Virus record (IMG/VR): IMGVR_UViG_3300015262_000026
Location: 1 to 30,192 of that record
Length of the DNA: 30,192 nt
Source: a virus
Reading direction: 5' to 3' (one strand)
The notes beneath the pieces are model-generated. The model saw nothing but the letters and a program-made list of their open reading frames with translations. It had not been told where the DNA came from and ran no database searches. Both the position numbers and the translations under genes were made by a program. Below are positions 28,159-28,229 of the stretch, one piece after another; the first letter of the stretch is position 1, and every line of letters begins with the position of its first letter.

Positions 28159-28229
28159 CCTCCCGGTGCGTAGGCCGCGGCTACTTCTTTGAAACAGGTG
28201 ACGCCGCAGCCGTCTTTGATCTCGGGAGG
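28159..28229 (+). ncRNA. Y RNA 2, short form without tRNA-like domain
   Basis: The terminal stem CCTCCCG (28159-28165) pairs with CGGGAGG (28223-28229). It has the same internal loop as its neighbours, GTGCGTA opposite GTCTTTGATCT. The second stem is GGC-C-GCGGC (28173-28181) with GCCGC-A-GCC (28203-28211), a C-A mismatch at the place where the other two have A-C, so the mismatch is kept with bases swapped. The loop (28182-28202) starts TACTTCT and ends CAGGTGAC, like the corresponding part of RNA 3 (TACTTCT, then GGGTGAC), but the T-arm, acceptor-like stem and D-arm are missing. It looks like RNA 3 with the tRNA module deleted. About 71 nt, 20 nt after RNA 1. Confidence 0.75.

Follow-up and report, generated by a model that had tools for sequence, protein, structure and literature searches.

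A short Y RNA without a tRNA-like head accompanies Ro60 in Streptomyces and in phages

The closest described systems are the bacterial Y RNAs, the Y RNA of Deinococcus and YrlA and YrlB of Salmonella. The lower stem of a Y RNA is bound by Rsr while its tRNA-like domain binds PNPase (PMC8394870). Additionally, the Y RNA serves as a gate that controls substrate access to Rsr, and the Ro60 site for misfolded RNAs overlaps the one for Y RNA (PMC4726728). Bacterial Y RNAs have been described as not homologous to those of vertebrates (PMC4726728). Short vertebrate Y RNAs such as hY5 combine a constant Ro60 end with a variable upper part and occur as several RNAs per organism (PMC4726728); they resemble the short RNA described here in this modular sense only, and no sequence homology is claimed.

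The DNA analyzed here, referred to as the window, is the complete IMG/VR record IMGVR_UViG_3300015262_000026 (30192 bases), which encodes a portal protein, a tail tape measure protein, a GH25 endolysin and collagen-like proteins. Its last gene is a Ro60/TROVE gene, Ro60 being a protein of RNA quality control, and 5' of this gene on the same strand are three Y-RNA-like hairpins, giving the order Y1, mini, Y3, ro60. The features are as follows.

27968–27995, + strand: promoter-like site TTGCGC-16-TACAGT, 5 nt upstream of Y RNA 1 (consensus match only)
28001–28138, + strand: Y RNA 1 (Y1), a Ro60-type stem with a permuted tRNA-like head of T arm, acceptor stem and D arm (descriptor match)
28159–28229, + strand: mini Y RNA (Y RNA 2), 71 nt, without a tRNA-like head (family covariation; covariance model R1, 79.5 bits, E 4.6e-15)
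28159–28165, + strand: terminal stem, 5' arm CCUCCCG, pairing with 28223–28229 (helix 1 of alignment A1)
28166–28172, + strand: internal loop, 5' side GUGCGUA, the presumed Ro60 contact (family motif GUGCG-N-A)
28173–28181, + strand: stem 2, 5' arm GGC-C-GCGGC (double changes in the stem 2 helices)
28182–28202, + strand: apical loop of 21 nt, UACUUCUUUGAAACAGGUGAC; family consensus UACUUC...GAA (family alignment)
28203–28211, + strand: stem 2, 3' arm GCCGC-A-GCC (A1 covariation)
28212–28222, + strand: internal loop, 3' side GUCUUUGAUCU (GAUCU invariant in A1)
28223–28229, + strand: terminal stem, 3' arm CGGGAGG (A1 covariation)
28244–28378, + strand: Y RNA 3 (Y3), a Ro60-type end, an anticodon-arm-like hairpin and a permuted tRNA-like head (descriptor match, hairpin)
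28395–28417, + strand: terminator-like hairpin CCCCUC-caugu-GAGGGG followed by CUUUUU (kept in most phage and prophage relatives compared)
28419–30101, + strand: Ro60/Rsr, 560 aa, TROVE plus vWA-type domain (Pfam PF05731, E 8e-15); GTG at 28404 is an alternative start

The product of 28419–30101 is a Ro60/Rsr protein, as it combines a TROVE domain with the DTSTSM motif of a vWA-type MIDAS. It also matches the TROVE proteins 9l5y and 9kop in the PDB (E 6e-21). A minus-strand tRNA called by ARAGORN at 28764–28860 lies within the ro60 coding sequence and was rejected as a false match.

Similar to the known bacterial Y RNAs, the mini adjoins a Ro60/Rsr gene, has a long terminal stem and a conserved internal loop, and has neighbors, Y1 and Y3, that bear a permuted tRNA-like head. 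Its dissimilarity lies in size, since minis span 66–86 nt compared with 90–150 nt for YrlA (PMC8394870), and in the lack of the T, acceptor and D arms that characterize YrlA (RF02553). None of these three arms was found in 28182–28202. When searched against Rfam, the mini gave no match even at a relaxed threshold, RF02553 included, whereas Y1 and Y3 do match: Y1 scores 43.7 bits against RF02553 (E 2e-8), short of its gathering score of 69, and Y3 gives a partial match (E 0.028). Minis make up a well-defined family of RNAs that goes unrecognized by the Rfam copy used here.

The anatomy of the mini is established, and the coordinates and elements first read for 28159–28229 proved exact to the base. 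A 7-bp terminal stem is followed by the internal loop and by a stem 2 with a single C.A mismatch. In all three RNAs of the window the 7-bp terminal stem leads into GUGCGYA (5' side) and GAUCU (3' side), and within one array the internal loop GUGCGNA/GAUCU is identical between minis and long Y RNAs. The edges of the apical loop, TACTTCT and GGTGAC, do recur in Y3 (28244–28378) as first observed; TACTTC is common to nearly all Y RNAs of the group, and the GGTGAC match is specific to this window.

Folding of the mini as a single sequence was not significant (z -1.6), so the case for this RNA rests on comparison. Viral contigs were scanned with the pattern GGTGCGNAG..TACTTC..GATCTC, in which the gaps admit short RNAs only and six flanking bases on each side are free. 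The collected loci contained 99 distinct matches, 87 of which form 5–6 of the 6 flank pairs using 44 different 5' arms. The 12 low-pairing matches, mostly coding-sequence-like by inspection, were excluded. Re-dealing the 3' arms still gives ∼40 matches with 5–6 pairs, because 47 matches have the arm CCTCCC in common.

Covariation of the mini was then established in A1, an alignment of 65 dissimilar minis in which the structure was named by hand and pairs were counted. Paired cells amounted to 92.2%, compared with 72.2% after shuffling and no more than 55% after sliding; double-change cells numbered 154 compared with 33 in shuffles (covariation 0.470 versus 0.117). In helix 1, 97.1% of cells are paired, with double changes at 5 of 7 pairs. 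The terminal stem is therefore proven by covariation, and its binding to Ro60 is presumed. GUGCG-N-A is invariant in 65 of 65 minis and GAUCU throughout A1, motifs that the search pattern fixes largely in the first case and entirely in the second. RNAalifold, applied to a MAFFT alignment, recovered the terminal stem alone because stem 2 varies in length, which is why the structure was named by hand. The covariance model R1 detects the window mini at E 4.6e-15, a value that comes from a copy inside the 65-sequence training set, and it also scores Y3 at 63.7 bits. By blastn against phages, matches were confined to the tRNA-like parts of the long RNAs, with none to the mini.

The non-significant single-sequence fold is what a decaying Y RNA pseudogene or a chance hairpin would give. 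We attach almost no probability to this explanation, which is refuted for the family by the covariation, the invariant motifs and the strict linkage to Ro60 described below; at most, the copy in the window might itself be untranscribed. Absence of the short RNA from related phages with decay of its stems, the outcome the earlier note had weighed against its reading, is not what was found: among the relatives searched the RNA is present and its stems are undecayed. Since roughly nine in every ten Ro60 loci of Streptomyces also keep the mini, the RNA is real and conserved rather than a broken copy, and we regard it as nearly certain that it constitutes a genuine Ro60-linked family.

To define this linkage, an evenly drawn sample of 121 Streptomyces genomes was used. 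TROVE is present in 68 and an R1 match in 64; both occur in 63 genomes, R1 only in 1, TROVE only in 5 and neither in 52 (Fisher 3.5e-27). As some R1 matches are long Y RNAs with the same Ro60 end, the count per locus required an R1 match of ≤85 nt. By this measure, 69 of 75 Streptomyces TROVE loci have a mini of 68–78 nt upstream, on the same strand and within 2.5 kb. The ∼8% of Ro60 loci without a detectable mini indicate that it is not indispensable. Among 246 genomes from the class, 18 are R1-positive and every one of these carries TROVE; R1 was found in none of the 216 TROVE-less genomes.

Most Ro60-bearing actinophage contigs carry the mini as well: by our own reading of the R1 matches, ∼29 of 33 non-redundant viral Ro60 loci with upstream sequence show a mini-length match; among these, the match in L040 lies downstream of ro60 and that in L023 includes a T arm. 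Cultured phages with a mini are GiJojo, pSt2308, Alone3, BRock, Atuin and Neville. In these the loop is altered to GAUGCG and the apex UACUUC...GAA is unchanged. R1 is weak for several of them (E 5e-5 to 0.3) and gives no score for pSt2308; the assignments in these phages rest on inspection.

Minis occur in many phages and prophages that encode a Ro60 themselves, and the RNA could therefore be a competitor, specific to phages, that disarms the Ro60 of the host. We consider this very improbable. Streptomyces encode the same RNA beside chromosomal Ro60, as at L177, a chromosomal locus with PhoX upstream and TerD downstream, and the phages themselves encode Ro60. L125 is a prophage locus whose strain has a second, chromosomal copy (L138). 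The mini is not phage-specific but is the rule at chromosomal Ro60 loci of Streptomyces, which makes it unlikely that the RNA is a competitor made by phages alone to act against host Ro60.

Two loci showed further rearrangement or gene content. The single Streptomyces genome of the 121 with R1 but without a TROVE match is G068 (L230), where Y3 is joined directly to an apparent 3' part of ro60 and the mini is intact; most of ro60 seems to have been deleted with the mini retained. In the prophage relative L125 (7872–11290), an integrase comes next after ro60, and a Ku-domain gene lies beyond it.

The family is also old: almost every clade of the Ro60 tree includes minis. This bears on the earlier description of the RNA as one that lost its tRNA-like module. 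The head is indeed absent, but loss as the direction of change is unproven given minis in nearly every Ro60 clade, and we have dropped it. tRNA-like material stands at the position of the mini in three loci, L011, L025 and L191, which are scattered and nested among mini-bearing relatives. The insert is a permuted head in L011 and a T arm only in L191. In L025 (3696–3834), the terminal stem is as in the mini and the insert resembles an ordinary, unpermuted tRNA-Thr(GGU) (Rfam tRNA, 40 bits). These are three separate events, and the head is thus exchangeable.

A different variant is found in five Streptomyces that form one clade (support 99/92), with hairpins of 31–33 nt at the place of the mini that arose by one shared deletion of stem 2 and head. 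These micro-Y hairpins are the following.

L151: 4750–4782, 31–33 nt micro-Y hairpin
L157: 4749–4780, 31–33 nt micro-Y hairpin
L160: ∼4749, 31–33 nt micro-Y hairpin
L185: 4210–4241, 31–33 nt micro-Y hairpin
L188: 4762–4792, 31–33 nt micro-Y hairpin

All five retain the terminal stem and GUGCGA and four of five retain GAUCUC, with the remainder diverged. Thus, the terminal stem and internal loop stand out as the part under selection.

The earlier note had taken the exchange of a conserved mismatch in stem 2 (C-A for A-C) as a sign of selection on the Ro60 site. The position turned out not to be conserved: in standard-length minis it is mismatched in 24 of 40 and an ordinary pair in 16 of 40, with A.A, C-G, C.A, G-C and nine other combinations. 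Long Y RNAs favor A.C (36 of 69) and are not uniform either. The swap is therefore uninformative on Ro60-site selection.

In most loci that start with Y1, a TANAGT-type -10 lies 5–6 nt before this RNA, and where Y1 is present the spacers of Y1-mini-Y3 (12–20 nt) are too short for separate promoters. Thus, Y1, mini and Y3 of the window are most likely carried on one transcript. At the other end of the array, the U tract of the terminator-like hairpin stops one base before the ro60 ATG and its 3' arm, GAGGGG, overlaps the likely Shine-Dalgarno, which may restrict both read-through and the synthesis of Ro60. At chromosomal loci its place is taken by another palindrome, GAATTCGGGGGAATTC.

This overlap, together with the fixed position and strand of the mini shortly before the last Y RNA and ro60 and the survival of terminal stem and internal loop in the 31–33 nt remnants, would fit a mainly cis-acting mini, a Ro60-binding leader element that lets Ro60 regulate its own expression or how the array is processed. 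We think this unlikely, since stem 2 and the apical loop are also conserved and would be superfluous for a bare cis site, and since similar Y RNA pairs occur far from ro60, before priA, in Ro60-positive Streptomyces.

These priA-side RNAs are Y-like RNAs of 93–101 nt located directly upstream of priA (L228:2383–2481, L229:2260–2360, L231:2002–2097 and, on the minus strand, L232:2197–2289). In L228 and L231 the RNA is followed by a second Y-like RNA with tRNA-like elements, and metK or coaBC is nearby in L228 and L229. One such pattern matched 6 of 121 Streptomyces genomes, all six TROVE-positive. The main texts of a Streptomyces ncRNA survey, an sRNA paper and a transcription-map paper do not mention Y RNA, TROVE or Ro60.

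The apex is the remaining conserved element of the mini. UACUUC is present in nearly all minis and is followed in most by GAA at a distance of 3–14 nt, most often 4, 7 or 9 nt. With inward pairs counted, 40 of 93 minis have a 7-nt apical loop. YUNNNRN fits 19 of the 26 distinct 7-nt loops, far above shuffles (mean 2.5, maximum 9 in 10,000), in a test that takes no account of common descent. Similarly, many long Y RNAs have a 5-bp anticodon-arm-like hairpin directly before the T arm, with loops such as CUGCUAA, CUGUUAA and CUCAUAA, so that tRNA mimicry in long actinobacterial Y RNAs exceeds the D, T and acceptor arms. These features suggest that the mini retains a relic or mimic of an anticodon arm. 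What many minis and many long Y RNAs have in common with a tRNA anticodon arm is a short stem capped by a 7-nt YUNNNRN loop; the differences in minis are a stem of mostly 3–4 bp, rarely 5, and no acceptor end, and the mini is no tRNA. The window copy is itself a poor example, being the short version UUC-UUU-GAA with a 3-nt loop.

Because the UACUUC...GAA apex is itself conserved, the mini may carry a partner of its own instead of being a bare gate. It could thus be a scaffold for a different partner, for instance a protein that reads anticodon arms, bound through the apical hairpin. In line with this, many minis have the anticodon-arm layout UUC(N)-7 nt-(N)GAA with the loop Y-U-N-N-N-R-N, the apex occupies the place of the 5-bp hairpin of long Y RNAs, and the sequence ...GGUGAAAUCACG is found again from metagenomic phages to the cultured BRock. 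Nevertheless, UUC/GAA hardly varies, so that conservation may be mostly of primary sequence, GAA is missing from its expected distance in 13 of 93 minis, and the loop triplets differ widely and match no single tRNA. On balance, we hold a scaffold to be the less probable role for the mini, ahead of a cis-acting one.

A more specific version, which we regard as doubtful, is that the hairpin is a true anticodon-arm mimic that Ro60 shows as a bait or sensor for readers or cutters of anticodon loops, such as anticodon nucleases in phage infection. The idea that YrlA is a competitive inhibitor of an anticodon nuclease has been raised for Salmonella (PMC7790460). If true, phages and hosts would both keep the mini as a means of tRNA protection or surveillance.

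Two tRNA annotations in cultured phages overlap Y RNA territory. In GiJojo (L205:2769–2843), the annotated tRNA-Arg(cct) has its start within the internal loop of the final Y RNA ahead of ro60 and is therefore probably a mis-annotated Y RNA. The annotated tRNA-Ser(gct) of Alone3 (L207:2774–2847) is at the same place.

The reading that we favor, at an even chance, is that the mini is a tether-less Y RNA gating Ro60 without recruiting the reader of the tRNA-like head. Here we infer co-transcription, processing, Ro60 binding and gating. The Y1-mini-Y3-ro60 array would probably form a single transcription unit from the promoter before Y1, and its transcript would be cut within the spacers of 14–20 nt between the Y RNAs. 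Because its terminal stem and GUGCGNA/GAUCU loop are as in the long Y RNAs, the mini most probably binds Ro60 on the same face as they do. Having no T, acceptor or D arm, it is unable to offer the tRNA-like head by which PNPase is carried in other bacteria. As the published division assigns the lower stem to Ro60 and the tRNA-like domain to PNPase, a head-less Y RNA should gate Ro60 without a nuclease; PNPase recruitment by actinobacterial Y RNAs is in this argument an extrapolation from Deinococcus and Salmonella. The mini would then act as a gate or placeholder under which some of the Ro60 pool stays bound to RNA and shut to substrates with no nuclease recruited, while the long Y RNAs would serve as tethers beside it, a design common to host and phage. 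Compared with RYPER, the Ro60-Y RNA-PNPase complex of Deinococcus, the presence of Ro60 with tRNA-headed Y1 and Y3 suggests a similar machine, whereas the mini, without the PNPase-carrying head, would form a Ro60 RNP outside it.

According to its abstract, a 2014 survey of Y RNAs reportedly found at least one Y RNA per species with a tRNA-like domain. This wording implies that head-less Y RNAs had already been seen, so the kind is not claimed as new; novelty is limited in that the survey likely noticed such RNAs already.

Y RNAs have been proposed to act as both gates and tethers of Ro60, two roles that one long RNA cannot separate. The loci described here usually pair long tethers with a tether-less mini, a natural separation of roles found in tractable Streptomyces and in cultured phages. 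Natural variants extend this set, namely the 31–33 nt remnants, a tRNA-like head in place of the mini, and a mini that survives the near-loss of ro60 (L230). With the roles separated in nature, the gate question becomes directly testable by deletion.
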